A stretch of DNA of 34,598 nt from Cytophagales bacterium CG12_big_fil_rev_8_21_14_0_65_40_12 (GTDB lineage: Bacteria; Bacteroidota; Bacteroidia; Cytophagales; Cyclobacteriaceae). The notes under the pieces were generated by a model, which saw only the letters and a program-made list of their open reading frames with translations, had not been told where the DNA came from and made no database searches. A program made the position numbers and the translations under genes. How positions within the stretch are numbered: the first letter of the stretch is position 1; every line of letters starts with the position of its first letter. The stretch covers positions 1 through 34,598 of the forward strand of contig PCUU01000045.1 of NCBI GenBank assembly GCA_002786855.1, given 5' to 3'. Shown here one piece after another: positions 441-21,744 of this stretch.

Positions 441-827
441 ATGAATTTTCATACCAGGAAATGGGTAAAGCCAGAAGACCTCAATCCGAATGGTTCATTA
501 TTCGGAGGTCGTCTTCTGGAATGGATTGATGAGGAAGCGGCACTTTACACCATTGTGCAGCTTGAAAATAAGCGCATTGTCACCAAATTCATTTCAGAAA
601 TTAATTTCATCAACGCCCCAGTCCAAGGCGATATTATAGAAATAGGTATTGAAGCCGTTGCCTTTGGTAACAGCTCGATTACGCTTCGATGCGAAGTAAG
701 GAATAAACTTACCCGAGAGGATATTCTGAGCATTGACAAAATCATTATGGTGAACCTCGGAGAAGACGGCAAACCCGCTGCTCATGGTAAAACGAAGATT
801 CAGTTTGTAAGGGATAGGTTAGGTTAA
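441..827 (+). CDS. acyl-CoA thioesterase, hotdog fold, YciA/BACH-like
   Basis: A 128-residue single hotdog domain that hydrolyses acyl-CoA thioesters in the cytoplasm. The diagnostic region NPNGSLFGGRLLEWIDEEAA (residues about 15-34) carries the N-x-x-G-x-x-FGG motif and the Asp of the hotdog helix used by YciA-type acyl-CoA hydrolases. The segment after it (FISEINFINAPVQGDIIEI) matches the family's second strand region. The length is usual for a single-domain bacterial member. The gene starts one base after the dps stop codon, suggesting translational coupling. The natural substrate cannot be told from sequence. The partner (Dps) does not point to a specific pathway. Confidence 0.85.
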   Translation: MNFHTRKWVKPEDLNPNGSLFGGRLLEWIDEEAALYTIVQLENKRIVTKFISEINFINAPVQGDIIEIGIEAVAFGNSSITLRCEVRNKLTREDILSIDKIIMVNLGEDGKPAAHGKTKIQFVRDRLG

Positions 828-863
828 GATTCAAACTCTGGGATTATCAACCCATGTCATTGA

Positions 864-915
864 ATAGATTTTCATCCTGAGGCACGAAGGAACTTAAGAC
901 CCTTCGTGTCTTAGG
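864..915. repeat. REP-like intergenic hairpin, copy 1
   Basis: Downstream of the thioesterase gene. Arms CCTGAGGCACGAAGG (876-890) and CCTTCGTGTCTTAGG (901-915) pair over 15 positions. Thirteen pairs are perfect and two are G-U in RNA, around a 10-base loop. There is no T-run, so this is a dispersed hairpin repeat rather than a clean terminator. A decayed relative lies at 2785-2830. The remaining part of the 828-1101 gap shows no gene. Confidence 0.6.
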
Positions 916-13651: not shown

Positions 13652-14863
13652 TTATTGAGTAGCCAATTCAACATCTTTCCAGAAGCCAGGGTATGATTTT
13701 TTAACCACATCGGGGTTTTTAATGACTATTTCTTGCTGAGTACAGAGGGGGGCAAAAGCCATGGCCATTCTGTGATCATCGTAAGTCTCAATTTCGATGG
13801 GTGCTGTGGACACCTCAAAATTTGATCTTAACTCAAATACTTCTGGTTCAATCTCTTTCAACTTAACATTGAATTTTTTGAGCTCTTTTTTCAGTGCCTT
13901 GATACGATTGGTTTCTTTAATGCGAAGACTTTCAAGGCCAGTCATGGTGCATTTGATTTTTTTAGCTGCACAGACAACCGCGATGGTTTGCGCCAAGTCC
14001 GGGCTGTCACTAAAGTCTATGCTGACTTCGCTGGCATGAGGAATTTTTTGGAGTAGCACTCCATCCGCTTCAAAGGTGCTCATTACGCCCAATTGGTTCA
14101 TCATATGAACAATGGCTATATCACCTTGAAGTGACTTTTGCCGTAAGCCCTTAAGTTTTAAGGTGGCATTGTCAGCAAGTGCAACAAAACTATACCAGTA
14201 GCTAGCCCCAGACCAATCTGATTCTACTGTATAAGGATACTCCTTGTATTGCTGCGGACGAATTTCTATAGTTTGATTGGTCCAATTGGCTCCTACTCCG
14301 AACAAACGCATCATGTCCAATGTCATTTGGATGTAGGGACGAGAGCCGATTTTGCCTTTCAACTCTAAGCTCAAACCCTTGGGAAGGGAAGGGGCAATCA
14401 TTAAAATAGCGGATATAAACTGAGAGCTGACATCCCCTTTCATTTTAATATGATTGGTCTTTTGCTCAATAATTGGCTTTACCCTCAGCGGTGGATAGCC
14501 TTCATTTTTCAGGTATTTGACTTTAGCGCCAATTTGTTTGAGCGCAACTCCCAAAATCTTGATTGGCCTTTCTTGCATTCGAGGAGTGCCTGTAAGGATT
14601 CTTGTTTGATTGCCCACTGCCGTTAATGCAGTCAGAAAACGCATTGTGGTCCCAGCATCAAGTACATCCAATGTTTCTTCTTCGCTGGCGAGCAACTTGA
14701 GCATGGTTTGGGTATCGCGTGCTTCGGAAATGTTTTGAATCTGAGAAAGATTGCCTGAAAGTGCGTTGAGAATTAAAGCCCTATTGCTCTCACTTTTCGA
14801 TGCGGGAAGAGGAATTTCAACTTCCTTTATGATGGGTGAGTGCTTAAGATGAATCTTATCCAC
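13652..14863 (-). CDS. aroA: 3-phosphoshikimate 1-carboxyvinyltransferase (EPSP synthase)
   Basis: Transfers enolpyruvate from PEP to shikimate-3-phosphate, step six of the shikimate pathway, in the cytoplasm. The 403-residue protein has LPASKSESNRALIL near the N-terminus (Lys and Ser substrate ligands) and LDAGTTMRFLTAL, the counterpart of the canonical GNAGTAMR. GDVSSQFISAILMIAP follows, then SDSPDLAQTIAVVCA and ETYDDHRMAMAFAP, with the DHRMAM signature. It is slightly short (typical 420-430), as seen in other Bacteroidota. It is the last gene of the attenuator-controlled unit and starts four bases after the aroB stop codon. The following ABC exporter is 79 bases away, with no clear terminator between. 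Confidence 0.93.
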   Translation of the reverse strand: MDKIHLKHSPIIKEVEIPLPASKSESNRALILNALSGNLSQIQNISEARDTQTMLKLLASEEETLDVLDAGTTMRFLTALTAVGNQTRILTGTPRMQERPIKILGVALKQIGAKVKYLKNEGYPPLRVKPIIEQKTNHIKMKGDVSSQFISAILMIAPSLPKGLSLELKGKIGSRPYIQMTLDMMRLFGVGANWTNQTIEIRPQQYKEYPYTVESDWSGASYWYSFVALADNATLKLKGLRQKSLQGDIAIVHMMNQLGVMSTFEADGVLLQKIPHASEVSIDFSDSPDLAQTIAVVCAAKKIKCTMTGLESLRIKETNRIKALKKELKKFNVKLKEIEPEVFELRSNFEVSTAPIEIETYDDHRMAMAFAPLCTQQEIVIKNPDVVKKSYPGFWKDVELATQ

Positions 14864-14867
14864 GATA

Positions 14868-15902
14868 TTATTGCTTGAGTTTGGTGAAGTAAAAAAGGGA
14901 ATCGATTACGTCTTTTTCGTCCACTGCGATGTCATAAGTGGCGCTGCCAATTCCCCTTAATAGCGAATGATTAAGTTGACGGCCTTGGTTTTTTTTGTCT
15001 TGGTACATGAGTTTCACGATGCCTACAAAATCCTCTTTTCTGATGTTAATGTCAGGATAAATTTTGAGAATTGAATCAGAAATTTGCTTTAGATTTTCAG
15101 CGGAAAGACCCAAAAGTTTTTTTGACAAGTAGGCTTCACAAATCATCCCGATGGCAATCGCCTCGCCATGAAGTAGCTTGAATTCGCTTGGTAGATAATA
15201 GCTTTCGATCCCATGGCCAACGGTATGTCCAAAATTTAAAATCTTTCTTAAACCAGCTTCTTTTGGGTCGGCTTTGACTACGGCATTTTTGATTTCTACA
15301 GAGTGTGCAATTACTGCTTCCCAATTGTCAATCTCCAAACCTTTGGTGATTGCTTGGTCGAAATAATCTGCATCTGCAATAAGTCCGTGCTTTATCACTT
15401 CAGCAAAGCCTGATCGAAGTTCTTTATTAGATAATGTTTTCAGGAATATGGGGTCGATCAATACAGCTTCAGGGTCTTGAAAAAAGCCAAGGTGATTTTT
15501 GAAGCCCATAAAATCGATGCCCAGTTTTCCACCAACATTGGCATCAACTGCTGCTAATAAGGTGGTTGGAATATTGACAAAACGAATACCTCTTTTATAA
15601 GTGACCGCACAAAAACCACCCATATCGCCAATCACGCCACCACCCAAATTGATCAAGAGTGCTTTTCTGTCGAAGTTATTGAGGGTCATTTGCTCCCAAA
15701 TGTGTTCGCAAGTGCGGAGGGTTTTGTGTTCTTCGCCCGAACTGATTTCTATCAGTAAATGCGGAGGAAGCAATTCCTTGATTAAAGGATAGCAATTCGC
15801 AAGCGTGTTCTCATCGACAAGAACGGCCAATTGCGAATGGCTAATTTCCTTTAAGCAAAGAGGTAAAGTGGTTTTTATTTTATCTATTATGATGTCACTC
15901 AT
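14868..15902 (-). CDS. aroB: 3-dehydroquinate synthase
   Basis: Converts DAHP to 3-dehydroquinate with NAD and a divalent metal, step two of the shikimate pathway. The 344-residue protein has SSGEEHKTL (NAD/phosphate contact) and NLGGGVIGDMGGF (dinucleotide-binding loop). IPTTLLAAVDANVGGKLGID, the signature strand-turn, follows. Metal ligands are in GFAEVIKHGLI, NFGHTVGHGIES and LLHGEAIAIGM. All catalytic segments are intact. Its ATG overlaps the stop of the upstream DAHP synthase by four bases (ATGA), indicating translational coupling. It is controlled by the attenuator at 17008-17172. Confidence 0.95.
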   Translation of the reverse strand: MSDIIIDKIKTTLPLCLKEISHSQLAVLVDENTLANCYPLIKELLPPHLLIEISSGEEHKTLRTCEHIWEQMTLNNFDRKALLINLGGGVIGDMGGFCAVTYKRGIRFVNIPTTLLAAVDANVGGKLGIDFMGFKNHLGFFQDPEAVLIDPIFLKTLSNKELRSGFAEVIKHGLIADADYFDQAITKGLEIDNWEAVIAHSVEIKNAVVKADPKEAGLRKILNFGHTVGHGIESYYLPSEFKLLHGEAIAIGMICEAYLSKKLLGLSAENLKQISDSILKIYPDINIRKEDFVGIVKLMYQDKKNQGRQLNHSLLRGIGSATYDIAVDEKDVIDSLFYFTKLKQ

Positions 15903-16993
15903 AGGTTGGCCATTGGGCGCATTTCTTTTAGTTGGGCTTCCTGCTTTTTAACGGATTCCTCATGGATGGCAAATAAAAGGCTTTTCATGAACTTTTCGGT
16001 CATGTTTTTCTTAATGCCTTCTTTAATCCTGCTGTCCATTACTTCTTGCCAACGACTAGGCTGATAAACGGCCAAATTGTGTTCCCTTTTGTATTCGCCT
16101 ACTTGCTCTATGACTTTGAAACGTTCTGAAAAAAGCTCTAAAATTTGAGAATCTAGTAAGTCGATTTTGTGACGGTACTTGTCAATTTCAGTGAGCATTT
16201 CTGGATGCTCATCAACATTTTCTCTGAAGATGAGGCTATCATAAATGATCTTCAGCATGTCAGGAGTGATTTGCTGCTTGGCATCACTCCATGCATTATC
16301 AGGATCGTGATGAGTTTCAATCATCAATCCGTCCAATCCAAAATTGATGGCGCGTTGGCTCACCGCACCAATGATTTCGCGTGTTCCGCAAATGTGGCTT
16401 GGATCACAAATCACAGATAAGCCCGGTACCATTCTCTTCAAGTGAATTGGCATTGACCATTCTGGCTTGTTTCTGTAGCGCTTTTCGTAGGGATCAGAAA
16501 ATCCTCTATGTATTCCAGCTACTTTATTAATGCCAACTTTATTCAATCTTTCAAAAGCTCCTAGCCAAAGCTGCAAATCTGGATTGATAGGGTTCTTCAC
16601 CATTACAGGAATATCAACACCCTTGAGCGCTTCGCATATTTCTTGTACCGAAAATGGATTTACCGTAGTTCTTGCCCCAATCCAAAGCACTTCAACGCCA
16701 GCTTTCAATGCAGCTTCTACATGCTTGGTTTTGGCTACTTCAACCGTAACAGGCACATTCAGAATTTCCTTGGCCGCATCTAGCCATTCCAATGCTTCAG
16801 ATCCAACCCCCTCAAAAGAGCCGGGTCTCGTTCGGGGTTTCCAAATACCTGCCCTGAATAATTCAACCGGACTGCCTTTCAATCCTTTGGCAATAGTTTC
16901 AATTTGCTGCGGGCTTTCTGCGCTGCATGGGCCAGCAATCAGAACATGTTCTGATAATCCTAAGCCCCAATCTTTAATGTCGATGATGTCCAT
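15899..16993 (-). CDS. bifunctional DAHP synthase / chorismate mutase (attenuator-controlled copy)
   Basis: A 364-residue fusion that opens the shikimate pathway (PEP plus erythrose-4-phosphate to DAHP) and also converts chorismate to prephenate. Residues about 1-255 are a type I-beta DAHP synthase. They contain LIAGPCSAES, GIWKPRTRPGSFEG, WIGARTTVNPFSVQ, MVKNPINPDLQLW, ICDPSHICGTRE and METHHDPDNAWSDA, with the metal Cys, His, Glu and Asp positions present. Residues about 265-355 are an AroQ-type chorismate mutase (DKYRHKIDLLDSQILELFSE, then KREHN). The catalytic mutase Arg and Lys positions appear intact. It is the first gene of the unit with aroB and aroA and is preceded by a Phe/Tyr leader peptide and terminator. 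A paralogue lies at 17737-18834. Confidence 0.92.
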   Translation of the reverse strand: MDIIDIKDWGLGLSEHVLIAGPCSAESPQQIETIAKGLKGSPVELFRAGIWKPRTRPGSFEGVGSEALEWLDAAKEILNVPVTVEVAKTKHVEAALKAGVEVLWIGARTTVNPFSVQEICEALKGVDIPVMVKNPINPDLQLWLGAFERLNKVGINKVAGIHRGFSDPYEKRYRNKPEWSMPIHLKRMVPGLSVICDPSHICGTREIIGAVSQRAINFGLDGLMIETHHDPDNAWSDAKQQITPDMLKIIYDSLIFRENVDEHPEMLTEIDKYRHKIDLLDSQILELFSERFKVIEQVGEYKREHNLAVYQPSRWQEVMDSRIKEGIKKNMTEKFMKSLLFAIHEESVKKQEAQLKEMRPMANL

Positions 16994-17007: not shown

Positions 17008-17039
17008 AAAAAAAAAGCCCGACTCTTTCGAACCGGGCT
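17008..17039 (-). terminator. attenuator terminator upstream of the aro unit
   Basis: On the minus strand, AGCCCGGTTC (17039-17030) pairs with GAGTCGGGCT (17025-17016) over ten positions, two of them G-U, closing a GAAA tetraloop. A run of nine T follows (17016-17008). It lies between the leader peptide stop (17061) and the DAHP synthase start (16993), so termination here would silence all three genes. Alternative pairings exist. GAGCCTG (17079-17073) can pair with the right arm at 17021-17015. CTTTAGAAC (17100-17092) can pair with GTTCGAAAG (17033-17025) with one mismatch. Confidence 0.85.
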
Positions 17040-17060
17040 ATGAAATTTCTTTAAGTTTTT

Positions 17061-17138
17061 TCAATGTAAGCGCAGGCTCGATCTCTCGTGAGTTCTAAAG
17101 TAAAAGAAGTAATAAAAGAAGCCTGCTGTATTGATCAT
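17061..17138 (-). CDS. aromatic leader peptide of the aro attenuator
   Basis: A 25-codon reading frame starting with ATG at 17138 and ending with TGA at 17063-17061. After MINTAG comes FFYYFFYF, eight consecutive Phe/Tyr codons (17120-17097), then RTHERSSLRLH. The eight aromatic codons use both synonyms (TTC/TTT, TAT/TAC). The start is four bases after a near-consensus -7 box, so the transcript may begin at the start codon. Segment GCAGGCT (17126-17120), just before the aromatic run, is the exact complement of AGCCTGC (17078-17072) near the stop codon. A ribosome stalled on the aromatic run would cover the first and leave the second free. A ribosome at the stop codon would cover the second. 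This is the geometry of pheL/trpL-type attenuation. The peptide is too short for protein searches to find. Confidence 0.85.
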   Translation of the reverse strand: MINTAGFFYYFFYFRTHERSSLRLH

Positions 17139-17142
17139 GGCA

Positions 17143-17172
17143 TAAACTTAGGTATCTAATCCGTAAGTCAAA
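17143..17172 (-). promoter_or_regulatory. promoter of the attenuator-controlled aro unit
   Basis: On the minus strand, TTTG (17172-17169), an 18-base spacer, and TAAGTTTA (17150-17143) match TTTG-N19-21-TAnnTTTG with one base off the -7 box and a one-base-short spacer. It lies 33 bases after the stop of the upstream prephenate-dehydratase-like gene, giving the second unit its own start. Confidence 0.7.
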
Positions 17173-17204
17173 ACATTATTAATAAAATTTTTTGTGCAAT
17201 CGAT

Positions 17205-17744
17205 TTACCCCTCGATTAGTGTGAAGGTTGTTTTGTTGTCAGGATGATCTTCTATGTTTTCAGCAATAAGCAATAGATTATTTGTTTCGATCGCTTCTTT
17301 GCTAGAGATTACTGCTGCCGTTTTCTCGCGATTGTTCACTAACTCTTGAATTGCGCCAGCGGTACTGGTGCTTGATATAAAGGTGATGTGGCTATATTTA
17401 GAAAAGAACTTTTGAGTCTCTTTAATGGCCATGGTATGAGAATATATCTTGGTGATTTCTCTCAACGAAAGTGGCCGATTGCTTCCCAAGCACAGGTTGA
17501 CAGGCAAATCATATTCTTGAACAATCTTGAACTGGGCAGCTCTTATGCGTTCCAAGTTATTGCTCACCAATCCAGAGGCGTTGTTGCGCACTGCAATCAA
17601 TGCTTTTTTGATTTTCCCTTCTTTTAATGCTGTGAAGATGTCATCAAAATTATTGAAGAAGGAAAAGCTCAAATTGGGCAAGAAACGCTGCCTTGCAATG
17701 TCGTGATATGTGTTTTCGGGGCCGAGTAGTCCTAGGTCAGTCAT
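17205..17744 (-). CDS. degenerate prephenate-dehydratase-like protein lacking an ACT domain
   Basis: A 179-residue protein with the prephenate dehydratase fold and no C-terminal ACT domain. Recognisable segments are GLLGPENTYHDIA (canonical G-P-x-G-T/S-F/Y), ALIAVRNNASGLVSNN (canonical A-I-E-N-S-x-x-G), YSHTMAIKETQKFF (canonical S-H-P-x-A-L-x-Q-C), STSTAGAIQEL, and DNKTTFTLIEG (canonical N-x-T-R-F). The key residues are altered: Glu to Arg53, Gln to Glu or Lys near 108-110, and Arg to Thr173, while Asn54 and Thr172 remain. It is therefore probably inactive or altered in activity. Its ATG overlaps the stop of the upstream DAHP synthase by eight bases, so the two are translationally coupled. 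A role as a regulatory partner of the fused enzyme is inference. Confidence 0.75.
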   Translation of the reverse strand: MTDLGLLGPENTYHDIARQRFLPNLSFSFFNNFDDIFTALKEGKIKKALIAVRNNASGLVSNNLERIRAAQFKIVQEYDLPVNLCLGSNRPLSLREITKIYSHTMAIKETQKFFSKYSHITFISSTSTAGAIQELVNNREKTAAVISSKEAIETNNLLLIAENIEDHPDNKTTFTLIEG

Positions 17745-18834
17745 TTGTTTTCGATGCTTTGTCCGAATTAAATACGGAAGTCTGTATTCTTACGGATTGT
17801 TGGTGAATATGTCGATAAAGTTCGCGAATAAATTCTGGATCTAGGTTTAAAGATTTTGCCCATTCTGATCTCGACTGCAAAATCTCTTTCCAACGGCTGA
17901 TTTGAAAAATGGCAACGTTGTTTTCTTTTTTATAATCACCAATTTTTTCCACCAGACTTAAGCGGGTTGCGATGGCTTCTAAAATTTCTCTGTCGGCTTG
18001 GTCGATTTGTTCTCTGATGATTTCAAGTTGATTAATAATGCTTTCATCATTGAAAGCATGTTCCCGAAGGATCAATTGATCCAAAAGTATTGTGAAATTG
18101 GCAGGAGTGAGTTGTTGTTGGCTATCGCTCAAGGCATTGTCAGGGTCAAAATGCGTTTCGATCATTAGGCCATCATAGTCTAAATCAAGCGCCCTTTGAG
18201 AAAGTTCGCCAATCAAAGCCCTTTTTCCGCCCATATGGCTCGGATCGCAAATCATTGGGATGTTTGGAAATTCACTTTTGAATTCCATGGCAATTTGCCA
18301 AAATGGGGTATTCCTGTATTTACTAGGTTGAAAAGTTTGAAAGCCTCTATGGATTGCGCCCAATTGCTCAATGCCGTTTTTCACGAAGCGTTCAATGGCA
18401 CCTTTCCAAAGTGCCAATTCTGGATTGATTGGATTTTTAACGAATACAGGAATTTTCACGCCCTTTAAGGCATCTGCAATTTCTTGAACATTAAATGGGT
18501 TCACAGTGGTCCTTGCGCCAATCCAAACCATAGATACGTCATTTTTCAATGCAATTTCAACATGTTCTGCCGTGGCCACTTCGGTAGCAAACTTGATATT
18601 AAAAACAGATTTAGCCTCTTCAATCCATTCAAAAGCGGCTTCTCCCATGCCCTCAAAAGAGCCTGGCCGGGTTCGGGGTTTCCAAATGCCACCACGCACA
18701 TAATCTAGTTTGGCCAATGGGAGTCCCTCTAAAGTAGAGAAGAGTTGTTCCTTACTTTCTACACTACAGGGTCCCGCTATGATTAGTGGTTTAGTACGGT
18801 TCAAAGGCCGTTTATCTAAGCTCTTTTCGGACAT
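17737..18834 (-). CDS. bifunctional DAHP synthase / chorismate mutase (first copy)
   Basis: A 365-residue paralogue of the protein at 15899-16993 with the same two-domain order. The DAHP synthase part (about residues 15-255) has IIAGPCSVES, GIWKPRTRPGSFEG, WIGARTTVNPFNVQ, FVKNPINPELALW, MICDPSHMGGKRA and METHFDPDNALSDS. The chorismate mutase part (about 268-350) has IREQIDQADREILEAIATRL and KKENN. All active-site segments are present in both copies. This copy is not preceded by a leader peptide with aromatic codons. It is transcribed from a -7 box at 18862-18869 and shares an operon with the prephenate-dehydratase-like gene. Two copies suggest separate regulation or different end-product sensitivity. 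Confidence 0.9.
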   Translation of the reverse strand: MSEKSLDKRPLNRTKPLIIAGPCSVESKEQLFSTLEGLPLAKLDYVRGGIWKPRTRPGSFEGMGEAAFEWIEEAKSVFNIKFATEVATAEHVEIALKNDVSMVWIGARTTVNPFNVQEIADALKGVKIPVFVKNPINPELALWKGAIERFVKNGIEQLGAIHRGFQTFQPSKYRNTPFWQIAMEFKSEFPNIPMICDPSHMGGKRALIGELSQRALDLDYDGLMIETHFDPDNALSDSQQQLTPANFTILLDQLILREHAFNDESIINQLEIIREQIDQADREILEAIATRLSLVEKIGDYKKENNVAIFQISRWKEILQSRSEWAKSLNLDPEFIRELYRHIHQQSVRIQTSVFNSDKASKTND

Positions 18835-20186: not shown

Positions 20187-21392
20187 TTATTTCTTAATTA
20201 GTACCTCGCTAGCTTCCTTTAAGGTAAACTTGATCATTGGCACTTCATTTATACTTTCGTGCTTTGTAATATTTACCCTTACATCCTCTCCCTTTATGTT
20301 TAAGTCATCAGGCATTTCTAAAATAGCGTCTTTTCCATAGATGCGCATTTTTTCCTTTATCTCGCGTAATGTCCCTGTCAATTTAACCTCCAAAACTTCA
20401 GGCTTAGGGCCTTGGTTATAGAAGTAAAACTTAACATTCTTAGAAGTATTCACTGTGTCCATTACATCTTCAGTAATCGTTTCGGATTTCACATTTAAAT
20501 CAACAGCAATTTCTTTGAATTCATCTACTAATGCAGGTTCAGCCACATCGGTACAAGCATAAGCAATTAATAATGTGCCTAAAATAGGCAAAGCGAGTAA
20601 CGGTTTTAATTTGTTCATGATATTTGAGTTTAATTGTTGTATCATTTTTAACCTTTTCTGAATTGGATGCTCATTGAAACCAGACAGAAGTGAGTTGTCA
20701 ATTTTTGATAAGGTAAATTGAAGTAATGAGCGTTCGTAACTTTTGGCATTAACATAGTTCACAACCTCTTGATCTGCGATGTACTCATGTTGCAGTCGAA
20801 TCGACTTCGCATACAGATAACTGATGGGATTGAACCATAAAATGCATTTGAGTAGCTCGAAAAGAAGAATATCCAAAGAATGCTTGCCATCAATATGGGC
20901 CAATTCATGCCTGATGATTTGATCCTTTAAATTTTGGTTCGCATTGAGTTCCTTTCCTATAAATATGGAGTTGAAGAAGCTAAAGGCTTCCATTCCTTCT
21001 ATTTCAATCACTTCGATTTGCCCACTTTTTAATGAAGGCCAATGGATGATTTTCTTCTTAACACCCATCAATTTATTCACAAGTAAGGCAATCGATATAA
21101 TCAGACCAGCGATATAAACTGTTGCTAAAATGGCTGTTGGGTTGGATGTTCCGTGGTCTAACAGAATGGTATGTCCGGGCAGATCCATCGCTCCAGATGC
21201 GATTTGTTCCTCTGCTTTCACAAAAGGCAAGCTGACTTGGATGCTCAGAAAAGGAATGATCAAAGAAGTCAGTACAGAAATTAGTAGGTAAATTCTGTTG
21301 ATAGAAAGGAGTTTCTGGTTCCTTAGAAACAACCAGTAAAAGCCATAGAAACTTGCCAAGCAAACGGACGATTCGAAAAGAAAATTATTCAT
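20187..21392 (-). CDS. BlaR1/MecR1-type M56 membrane metallopeptidase
   Basis: A 401-residue integral membrane zinc protease paired with a BlaI-type repressor. Helices are visible at about residues 5-22, 32-55 and 95-112. The cytoplasmic zinc site is HELAHIDGKHSLDIL (HExxH), followed by LKCILWFNPISYLYAKSIRLQHEYIADQ, split by the family's E-x-x-A-D motif. A fourth helix follows near residue 270 (LPILGTLLIAY). The C-terminal about 110 residues are probably periplasmic and are not a penicillin-binding sensor domain, so the signal is unlikely to be a beta-lactam bound as in BlaR1. On induction such proteases lead to repressor cleavage. It overlaps blaI by eight bases. Confidence 0.85.
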   Translation of the reverse strand: MNNFLFESSVCLASFYGFYWLFLRNQKLLSINRIYLLISVLTSLIIPFLSIQVSLPFVKAEEQIASGAMDLPGHTILLDHGTSNPTAILATVYIAGLIISIALLVNKLMGVKKKIIHWPSLKSGQIEVIEIEGMEAFSFFNSIFIGKELNANQNLKDQIIRHELAHIDGKHSLDILLFELLKCILWFNPISYLYAKSIRLQHEYIADQEVVNYVNAKSYERSLLQFTLSKIDNSLLSGFNEHPIQKRLKMIQQLNSNIMNKLKPLLALPILGTLLIAYACTDVAEPALVDEFKEIAVDLNVKSETITEDVMDTVNTSKNVKFYFYNQGPKPEVLEVKLTGTLREIKEKMRIYGKDAILEMPDDLNIKGEDVRVNITKHESINEVPMIKFTLKEASEVLIKK

Positions 21393-21744
21393 TGTCTTTG
21401 AGTTTTTTCATTAAGTCTTCTACCTGATCCACACTCAATTTTTTCTCTTGCACCATAAATGAGAAGAGCTTTTCGGCCGAGCCTTCAAAATGACTGCTTA
21501 AAAATCCATTGATGAAATTTTTAGTGTAAGCCTTCTTTTTTACCGCTGCGGAATACACAAAAGTGTTCCCCACCTTTTCTCGGGTTACAAAACCTTTGCC
21601 TTCTAAAAGTTTAATAAAGGTGCCTACCGTATTATAGGCTGGTTTTGGATCGGGCATTTGTTCGACAATGTCTTTGATAAACATCTTTTCGTTAGCCCAA
21701 ACGATCTGCATGATTTGCTCTTCTGCTTTTGTTAATTCTTTCAT
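21385..21744 (-). CDS. BlaI/MecI/CopY-family transcriptional repressor
   Basis: A 119-residue winged-helix dimeric repressor. The N-terminal wing-helix is in MKELTKAEEQIMQIVWANEK and AYNTVGTFIKLLEGKGFV, with the standard recognition helix, followed by the wing TREKVGNTFVYSA. The C-terminal half (FINGFLSSHFEGSAEKLF and beyond) is the dimerisation helix bundle. It is co-transcribed and overlapped with the M56 protease gene, the usual pair in which the protease relieves repression. Three 20-bp direct repeats abut its start codon (21745-21804) and are the likely autoregulatory operators. What else it regulates is not visible here. Confidence 0.9.
   Translation of the reverse strand: MKELTKAEEQIMQIVWANEKMFIKDIVEQMPDPKPAYNTVGTFIKLLEGKGFVTREKVGNTFVYSAAVKKKAYTKNFINGFLSSHFEGSAEKLFSFMVQEKKLSVDQVEDLMKKLKDNE

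Follow-up and report, generated by a model that had tools for sequence, protein, structure and literature searches.

In the window, by which we mean the whole stretch of 34,598 nucleotides that was analysed, a DAHP synthase-chorismate mutase gene (DAHPS-CM, 364 aa, 15899-16993) is followed on the minus strand by aroB, encoding 3-dehydroquinate synthase (14868-15902), and aroA, encoding EPSP synthase (13652-14863), the latter two above the curated NCBIfam cut-offs. The DAHPS gene, which starts at 16993 and is considered here as the regulated gene, exceeds the cut-offs of Pfam DAHP_synth_1 and CM_2; the NCBIfam DAHPS models also match it, yet below their curated cut-offs. Upstream on the same strand lie a gene for prephenate dehydratase (pheA, 17205-17744, Pfam), consisting of the catalytic domain alone, and a second DAHP synthase-chorismate mutase (17737-18834; NCBIfam, Pfam). 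The two DAHPS-CM copies (15899-16993 and 17737-18834) flank pheA and are about 50% identical over the part that was compared. Elsewhere in the window, at 20187-21744, there is a gene pair composed of a BlaI-type repressor (Penicillinase_R) and an M56 (BlaR1-type) peptidase.

Between pheA and the downstream DAHPS gene, reading the minus strand base for base from 17173 to 17008 revealed a promoter, a leader ORF with a run of aromatic codons, a terminator and a T run. The leader ORF (17061-17138; MINTAGFFYYFFYFRTHERSSLRLH*) has 25 codons and a stop at 17063-17061. It is short and contains a run of codons for the amino acids that the regulated pathway makes: eight codons in succession, FFYYFFYF, at 17097-17120. 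No other ORF of 10-60 aa in the window has eight out of eight successive Phe/Tyr codons, and shuffled windows contained 0.005 such ORFs per window (200 dinucleotide-preserving shuffles). Between this ORF and the first structural gene stands an intrinsic terminator, made up of a 10-bp hairpin with a GAAA loop (17016-17039; stem AGCCCGGTTC/GAGTCGGGCT, 17039-17030 / 17025-17016) and a run of nine T (17008-17016), with 14 nt from the T run to the DAHPS start. For the leader of 146 nt, folding gave -35.9 kcal/mol (z -3.21), and none of 200 shuffles was equally stable. Among the two DAHPS-CM copies in the window, the candidate attenuator is found only on the downstream one; no leader was seen by eye in the short gap before the first DAHPS (18834).

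The promoter comprises an upstream element TTTTGAC in the -33 region (17167-17173), the same or a near string of which was seen by eye in many loci of the genus, and a -7 box TAAGTTTA (17143-17150; consensus TAnnTTTG) found by box search. An earlier note on this DNA had described a near-consensus promoter here. A promoter is indeed present, but judging from its motifs it would be better read as Bacteroidota-type than as sigma-70-type. The strings on which that note had built its case, including GCAGGCT at 17126-17120 and AGCCTGC at 17078-17072, were all found in place when the sequence was re-read base for base.

Conservation of the leader among relatives

Searching the DNA of 59 relatives gave a match in 22 genomes. 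The whole leader stands before DAHPS in 20 of these 22, namely in 18 of the 19 genomes of the genus (the window's own included) and in two of other Cyclobacteriaceae genera. Nine further rows (L021-L029), two of which were the sole match in their genome, had matches solely elsewhere in the query and were dropped. The earlier note had tied its proposal to the aromatic run and the terminator being shared by close relatives, and in these 18 of 19 genus genomes both are present. Alignment of seven run codons in the 20 loci gives 140 cells, 139 of which hold Phe or Tyr; the third bases vary synonymously (TTT and TTC, TAT and TAC all occur), and Phe and Tyr replace one another. In the case of the Algoriphagus-type leaders, the aromatic block is broken by one Thr or Ser (YFTFFYFYF). 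Outside the run the leader peptide is freer, and the frame after the run differs between L004 and L002/L003.

The same leader build was identified in 8 among the 80 named DAHPS loci listed, where no genus member is among the names and picking was by aromatic ORF; the named carriers are Cyclobacteriaceae bacterium YHN15, Algoriphagus kandeliae, Belliella buryatensis, Marivirga arenosa and MAGs. Leaders of a different build precede DAHPS in L044 (a Sphingobacteriales MAG) and L059 (a Cytophagales MAG). In L044, a SAM riboswitch (RF00162, 68.1 bits; 802-907, minus strand) lies close to the differently built Phe/Tyr leader.

With a covariance model of the leader, 54 genomes among 291 of the order were matched at E<=0.01. 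The 29 new loci consisted of six genus repeats, 21 leaders from the family's other genera and two hydroxylase leaders, and DAHPS lies downstream of 20 of the 21. No DAHPS match was present downstream of L180, a typical DAHPS leader, within the stretch fetched. A survey of the phylum was then made on prephenate dehydratase, in which 90 of the 128 genomes with a match were read (30 automatically, 60 picked to widen the taxa). Of the loci read, 22 of 31 in the same class vs 3 of 59 in other classes have an aromatic-rich short ORF plus terminator upstream of this gene. This offers a rule for annotation, namely that an aromatic leader and terminator precede pheA often in the same class and seldom in the others.

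These data can be set beside a simpler reading of the locus, in which the hairpin ends the upstream DAHPS1-pheA unit as a common intrinsic terminator and the aromatic ORF is coincidental. The hairpin does lie 166-189 nt past the pheA stop, and like terminators without a leader occur at two other places in the genome (C24, C19). However, coincidence sits badly with an aromatic block before a terminator that recurs in other genera, and with the covariation of leader and terminator described below (segment 2 with the left arm of the terminator). Moreover, a Bacteroidota promoter separates pheA from the leader, and in the two loci inspected (L017, L019) the gene upstream of the leader is not pheA. 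We therefore regard this reading as very improbable.

Alternative pairings of the leader RNA

Segment 1 (GCAGGCTT, 17119-17126) ends at the aromatic run and pairs with a portion of segment 2 (GAGCCTGC, 17079-17072) in a protector hairpin. Alternatively, segment 2 pairs with the left arm and loop of the terminator. The antiterminator supported by folding and permutation has segment 2, TCGAGCC in the DNA (17075-17081), as its left half and segment 3, GGTTCGA (17028-17034, terminator left arm and loop), as its right half. The corresponding pairs are UCGAGCC (17081-17075):GGUUCGA (17034-17028) in the window, GUGAACCG:CGGUUCAC in L007, GUCGAGUCGG:CUGGUUCGAC in L005 and UCGAAUCGG:CCGAUUCGA in L019. 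From one to another of these four leaders, the loop-adjacent pair appears or disappears by a change in both strands together, and the antiterminator shows pair exchanges of the type C-G/U-A/U-G and C-G/U-A/G-C. In the alignment with related genomes, the check that the earlier note had asked for, the aromatic-rich ORF and the stem are conserved, with compensatory changes in the antiterminator.

Permutation tests were carried out on 49 leaders, consisting of the 20 aligned loci and 29 others, where those outside the 20 had been selected for having a leader. L044 and L059 (different build) and L187 and L188 (hydroxylase leaders) were omitted, and L032 and L176, which carry an identical leader, were treated as one record. 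Pairing of segment 2 with its own left arm had a mean of -17.9 kcal/mol vs -15.5 +/- 0.36 kcal/mol for permuted partners, with none of 5000 permutations as good when kinship among the 49 leaders is ignored. The own arm beats the mean foreign arm in 43 of the 49 and is no better in the remaining 6. When genus leaders were given the arms of other leaders, the energy went from -16.5 to -11.5 kcal/mol, a cost of 5.0 on average; for other leaders given genus arms it went from -18.7 to -15.8 kcal/mol, at an average cost of 2.9. Pair counts in a free register were 393 vs 358 +/- 5, with 0 of 10000 as good (48 distinct leaders, kinship ignored). An earlier count of 236 vs 202 +/- 5 pairs (29 distinct combinations) was biased, as the register had been chosen on the own partner; in that count the automatic register looks wrong for L020, L031, L168 and L172, all four of which were kept. 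Overall, ignoring kinship, the leader has a compensatory antiterminator that is mutually exclusive with the terminator.

The protector was likewise better with its own partners than in all 5000 permutations (kinship ignored). The earlier note is right as regards a 1:2 pairing that would be broken by a stalled ribosome. The two antiterminators proposed in that note fared differently. The strings CTTTAGAAC (17100-17092) and GTTCGAAAG (17033-17025) are present in the window, but no more than 4 of the 20 aligned loci contain both. When the segment-2 region was paired with the terminator's right arm, the mean was -8.1 kcal/mol and 4035 of 5000 permutations did equally well; this pairing is weak and without a signal of co-evolution, and in 49 of 49 leaders the pairing with left arm and loop is the stronger one. 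Both were dropped in favour of the left-arm pairing.

Terminator/antiterminator switches of such a shape are also used by T-boxes and riboswitches. One could thus imagine the leader to be another cis-acting RNA, that is a T-box, a riboswitch or a protein-binding attenuator, which senses Phe or Tyr directly. Yet more than half of the leader is ORF, with codons that swap F and Y while the class is kept, and the window reached the gathering threshold of no Rfam family, T-box and riboswitch families included; L001, the locus of the window leader, was without a match at E<=1. We give this explanation hardly any probability.

Folding with assumed ribosome positions

We folded the transcript with the part up to an assumed ribosome edge (P-site + 15) kept single-stranded. 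As long as the terminator lacks its right arm, the antiterminator of the window stands at 0.97-0.98 for stalls at the aromatic codons 7-14. Stalls at non-aromatic codons also leave it high (0.98 at codons 6 and 15, 0.85 at codon 16), and in this model the release zone is therefore wider than the aromatic run. With the ribosome at codon 17 the value is 0.36, and from codon 18 on it is 0.00; in the case of no ribosome it is 0.02 (0.14 by a looser measure).

Similar behavior was found among the relatives. Before the right arm is made, and with the assumed footprints, a mid-run stall frees the antiterminator (>0.8) in 48 of the 49 leaders, and a ribosome at the stop blocks it (<0.2) in 42 of 49, the other 7 not falling below 0.2. 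With no ribosome present, just 4 of the 49 leaders have the antiterminator below 0.5, which means that most relatives have a weak protector. If left untranslated, the leader would accordingly favour read-through in most of them in this model. The protector seems to matter mainly in the window species, and rapid loading of the ribosome seems to matter in general.

In the full transcript at equilibrium, the terminator remains at >=0.5 in 42 of 49 leaders despite a mid-run stall (0.94-0.96 in the window). Therefore, the antiterminator would have to form first and be trapped kinetically. The earlier note had proposed folding with and without the masked segments as a check. In such folding the switch appears as long as the right arm has not been made, but at the equilibrium of the full transcript the terminator persists.

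Position of the start codon relative to the promoter

In 44 of the 49 leaders, that of the window among them, exactly 4 nt separate the start codon from a TAnnTTT[G/A] box before it (15 of the 20 aligned loci and 29 of the 29 others). The spacing in the remaining five aligned loci is 5 nt in two, 3 nt in one, 8 nt in one and 7 nt in L012 (by eye). Among all loci gathered up to then, 35 of 14152 ATGs, leaders included, have the 4-nt spacing. In F. psychrophilum the -7 box is placed at -12 to -5 (PMC9723704). Given this placement and the 4-nt spacing, +1 would therefore fall on the A of the leader ATG (17138), and the leader looks leaderless, with its start codon at the predicted transcription start. 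Leaderless mRNAs are given as rare, 5.5%, in the F. psychrophilum data of PMC9723704, and 5' UTRs of <10 nt as about 3.7% in those of B. thetaiotaomicron (PMC7366714).

We also looked for the -7 box in 24 of the 25 positives of the phylum survey (L220 omitted). A box was found for 15 pheA leaders across the class, and the start codon follows it at 17-24 nt in 10, at 31-41 nt in 4 and at 4 nt in 1. The last of these is L251, which comes from a different family of the class and has its GTG start 4 nt past TACATTTG; it may be a leaderless case. Because L251 has the 4-nt spacing, the leaderless arrangement is not confined with certainty to the family of the window. According to PMC9976891, Shine-Dalgarno sequences are not recognised by the ribosomes of Bacteroidota. 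We suggest that a start codon on the first base of the transcript could be a way to load the ribosome early enough for termination control.

Proposed mechanism

Altogether, we consider it very probable that the element is a ribosome-mediated transcription attenuator that couples the charging of tRNA-Phe and tRNA-Tyr to the expression of DAHPS-CM/aroB/aroA. Transcription would start at the leader ATG (17138) or at most one base off, and the ribosome would load at the extreme 5' end. When Phe-tRNA and Tyr-tRNA are ample, the ribosome would pass the eight aromatic codons to the stop (17063-17061) and mask segment 2, the 3:4 hairpin (17039-17016) would form and transcription would end in the T run. 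When either Phe-tRNA or Tyr-tRNA is short, the ribosome would stall on 17120-17097 and mask segment 1. Segment 2 (17081-17075), left unmasked, could then pair with the left arm and loop of the terminator (17034-17028) before synthesis of the right arm; the terminator would be blocked and the operon read. In the window genome, the 1:2 hairpin would also promote termination without a ribosome. The codons of the leaders follow the pathway, with Tyr/His before phenylalanine hydroxylase, WWW before trpE and HHVHHFHH before hisG. The comparative evidence hence supports the earlier note in its central proposal, namely that this Bacteroidota genome has an attenuator of the pheL/trpL type whose leader encodes both Phe and Tyr, and what we report is a ribosome-mediated attenuator of this phylum that is backed by covariation.

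The terminated leader of about 130 nt, or its peptide, could also act mainly in trans, with attenuation in cis being secondary. Action in trans has been reported for rnTrpL/peTrpL of Sinorhizobium meliloti, where rnTrpL is a leaderless attenuator-derived sRNA (PMC10117765). However, conservation of the peptide does not extend beyond the aromatic run, the frame shifts between L002/L003 and L004, and a switch in cis accounts for the conserved RNA segments. A role mainly in trans thus appears improbable to us, and we retain the attenuator in cis.

A tyrosine leader before phenylalanine hydroxylase

In the genome of the window, the first search model, which had the terminator as its only structure, gave 23 matches at E<=10, with the window's own among them by construction. 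We inspected 14 of the 23 (L111-L124), leaving out L125-L129 and two rows without loci, and obtained two leaders, L111 and a trpE leader (L122, E 1.46). None of the remaining 12 looked like more than a terminator. The trpE leader, MKNRNLHGAWWWHLTELG, is accompanied by a terminator (G000:C91 near 2843-2927) and starts 7 nt past a TAGATTTG box by eye; it scores 31.7 bits with RF00513, below the cut-off of 41, and is without a match to RF01692 at E<=1. A His-rich leader, MLKNTDIASIPAHHVHHFHHLS, precedes hisG (L283, G000:C90 upstream of 56510) and starts 6 nt past TACCTTTG, again by eye, with no obvious terminator seen.

The model built from DAHPS leaders matched, at E 2.6e-5, a second leader with terminator before the phenylalanine hydroxylase gene (PF00351) of the window genome (G000:C41:15718-15850; L111, L130), with the Tyr/His peptide MLNANTYYYHYYHHPINGTVAVCN. 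Such a leader is present in 17 of 17 readable loci of the genus, in which 18 genomes carry the enzyme and that of G009 is split between contigs. The blocks in the genus are YYYHYYHH, HHHYYYYY, YHYHYYY, YTYRYYH and the like; Phe is absent from the block, and His codons are interspersed among the Tyr codons. Among 12 hydroxylase loci of other genera a leader was found in 5 (YYCYYYH, YYYYY, YYCYYY, YYYY, HYYAHYHIY) and was absent in 6, with L153 unreadable; in all, 30 of the 42 matched hydroxylase places had been fetched and 12 left out. L187 and L188 from the covariance-model search are hydroxylase leaders with six and seven Tyr.

The hydroxylase leader of the window genome is built in a similar manner, as its segment 2, CGGAACGG, faces the left arm and loop of the terminator, CCGATTCCG. 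In the ribosome model it acts like the DAHPS leader, though less markedly, with 0.82 for a stall, 0.33 when no ribosome is present and 0.00 at codon 16 and beyond. The start codon lies 5 nt past the box in 15 of the 20 hydroxylase leaders tested. At the level of the codons, the Phe-free hydroxylase block would act as an internal check on the codon logic.

Prephenate/arogenate dehydrogenase (PF02153) is without a match at E<=0.001 in 12 of the 19 genus genomes, the window's own included, and the search control was positive in 13 of 14 genomes. The other genus genomes have four clear matches (G002, G003, G009, G018) and three marginal ones (23.9-26.9 bits, cut-off 26.5). Therefore, phenylalanine hydroxylase may be the tyrosine route in the window genome, where pterin carbinolamine dehydratase is present as well. 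With no match to tyrA and tyrosine made via the hydroxylase, a Tyr sensor before the Phe-to-Tyr step would make sense. The tyrA-bearing members G002, G003 and G018 also have the hydroxylase leader. A Tyr-specific leader in this position predicts a biosynthetic phenylalanine hydroxylase, and a species to compare with is Echinicola vietnamensis, which we take to be a member of the window species' family. There, synthesis of tyrosine by both phenylalanine hydroxylase and a dehydrogenase has been proposed from fitness data (PMC7311316), with which our prediction fits.

The prephenate dehydratase of the genus is 178-182 aa long in 17 of 18 loci, the exception being L017, where a different gene stands. 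It is thus shorter than in the same-class matches, whose frames have 275-310 aa. In the case of the window enzyme, Pfam gives the PDT domain alone and no ACT domain; for the other genus members the loss of ACT is judged by length. Attenuation may have taken over the feedback that was lost with the ACT domain. In a wider and tentative picture, to which we would give slightly less than an even chance, a set of leaderless or near-leaderless leaders reads the supply of amino acids: Phe and Tyr codons would gate DAHPS, a Phe-free and Tyr-rich leader would gate the hydroxylase, which replaces TyrA in many members, and RNA attenuation would have replaced ACT feedback.

Comparison with known systems

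The closest classical counterpart is the enterobacterial pheL-pheA leader (RF01859, Phe_leader), which likewise has an aromatic leader peptide and 1:2 / 2:3 / 3:4 hairpins before aromatic amino acid genes. By comparison, the window leader mixes Phe and Tyr codons, precedes DAHPS-CM/aroB/aroA rather than pheA and has its start codon at the predicted transcription start. The gathering score of RF01859 (55 bits) was not reached in the window, L001 had no match at E<=1, and L032 and L044 scored 27.5 and 28.8 bits (E 0.58 and 0.3). The E. coli pheM leader of pheST resembles our element in a peptide with Phe codons and one Tyr codon, and differs in standing before a tRNA synthetase operon. A Trp-codon function is known for the Bacteroid-trp motif (RF01692), a candidate cis-regulatory RNA in Bacteroidetes that is comparable to our leader, as is Trp_leader (RF00513) as the leader of an amino acid operon; the window was unmatched by both at the gathering threshold. 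The Bacteroid-trp motif is listed in Table 1 of PMC2864571.

The earlier note had considered such attenuation new for the phylum, which is not the case. Table 7 of PMC1173090 lists a putative attenuator, from the Merino database, before pheA>hisHb>aroAIbeta-aroQ>tyrA of B. thetaiotaomicron. In F. psychrophilum, strong clues for leader-peptide attenuation before amino acid operons have been put forward, and the structured 5' element before pheA there is conserved in Flavobacteriaceae without Rfam hits (PMC9723704). The attenuation mechanism and its presence in Bacteroidota were thus already known as predictions. These predictions share phylum, pathway and proposed mechanism with our element; they precede pheA, whereas the window leader precedes DAHPS, and the relevant parts of PMC1173090 and PMC9723704 give neither a leader sequence nor an antiterminator. 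In the literature searched, which covers few subscription journals, the parts seen describe no Phe/Tyr leader before DAHPS, no antiterminator between segment 2 and the left arm, no leaderless attenuator in Bacteroidota and no Tyr-codon leader before phenylalanine hydroxylase.

As regards the start of the transcript, the nearest likeness is trpL of S. meliloti (rnTrpL/peTrpL), which begins at the leader AUG (PMC10117765). It differs in phylum, amino acid (Trp) and sequence, and it is leaderless from data, whereas the window leader is predicted to be so from spacing. Overall, the kind of attenuator is classical; the apparently leaderless form and the tyrosine twin look new, and these two are of more interest than the existence of an attenuator as such.
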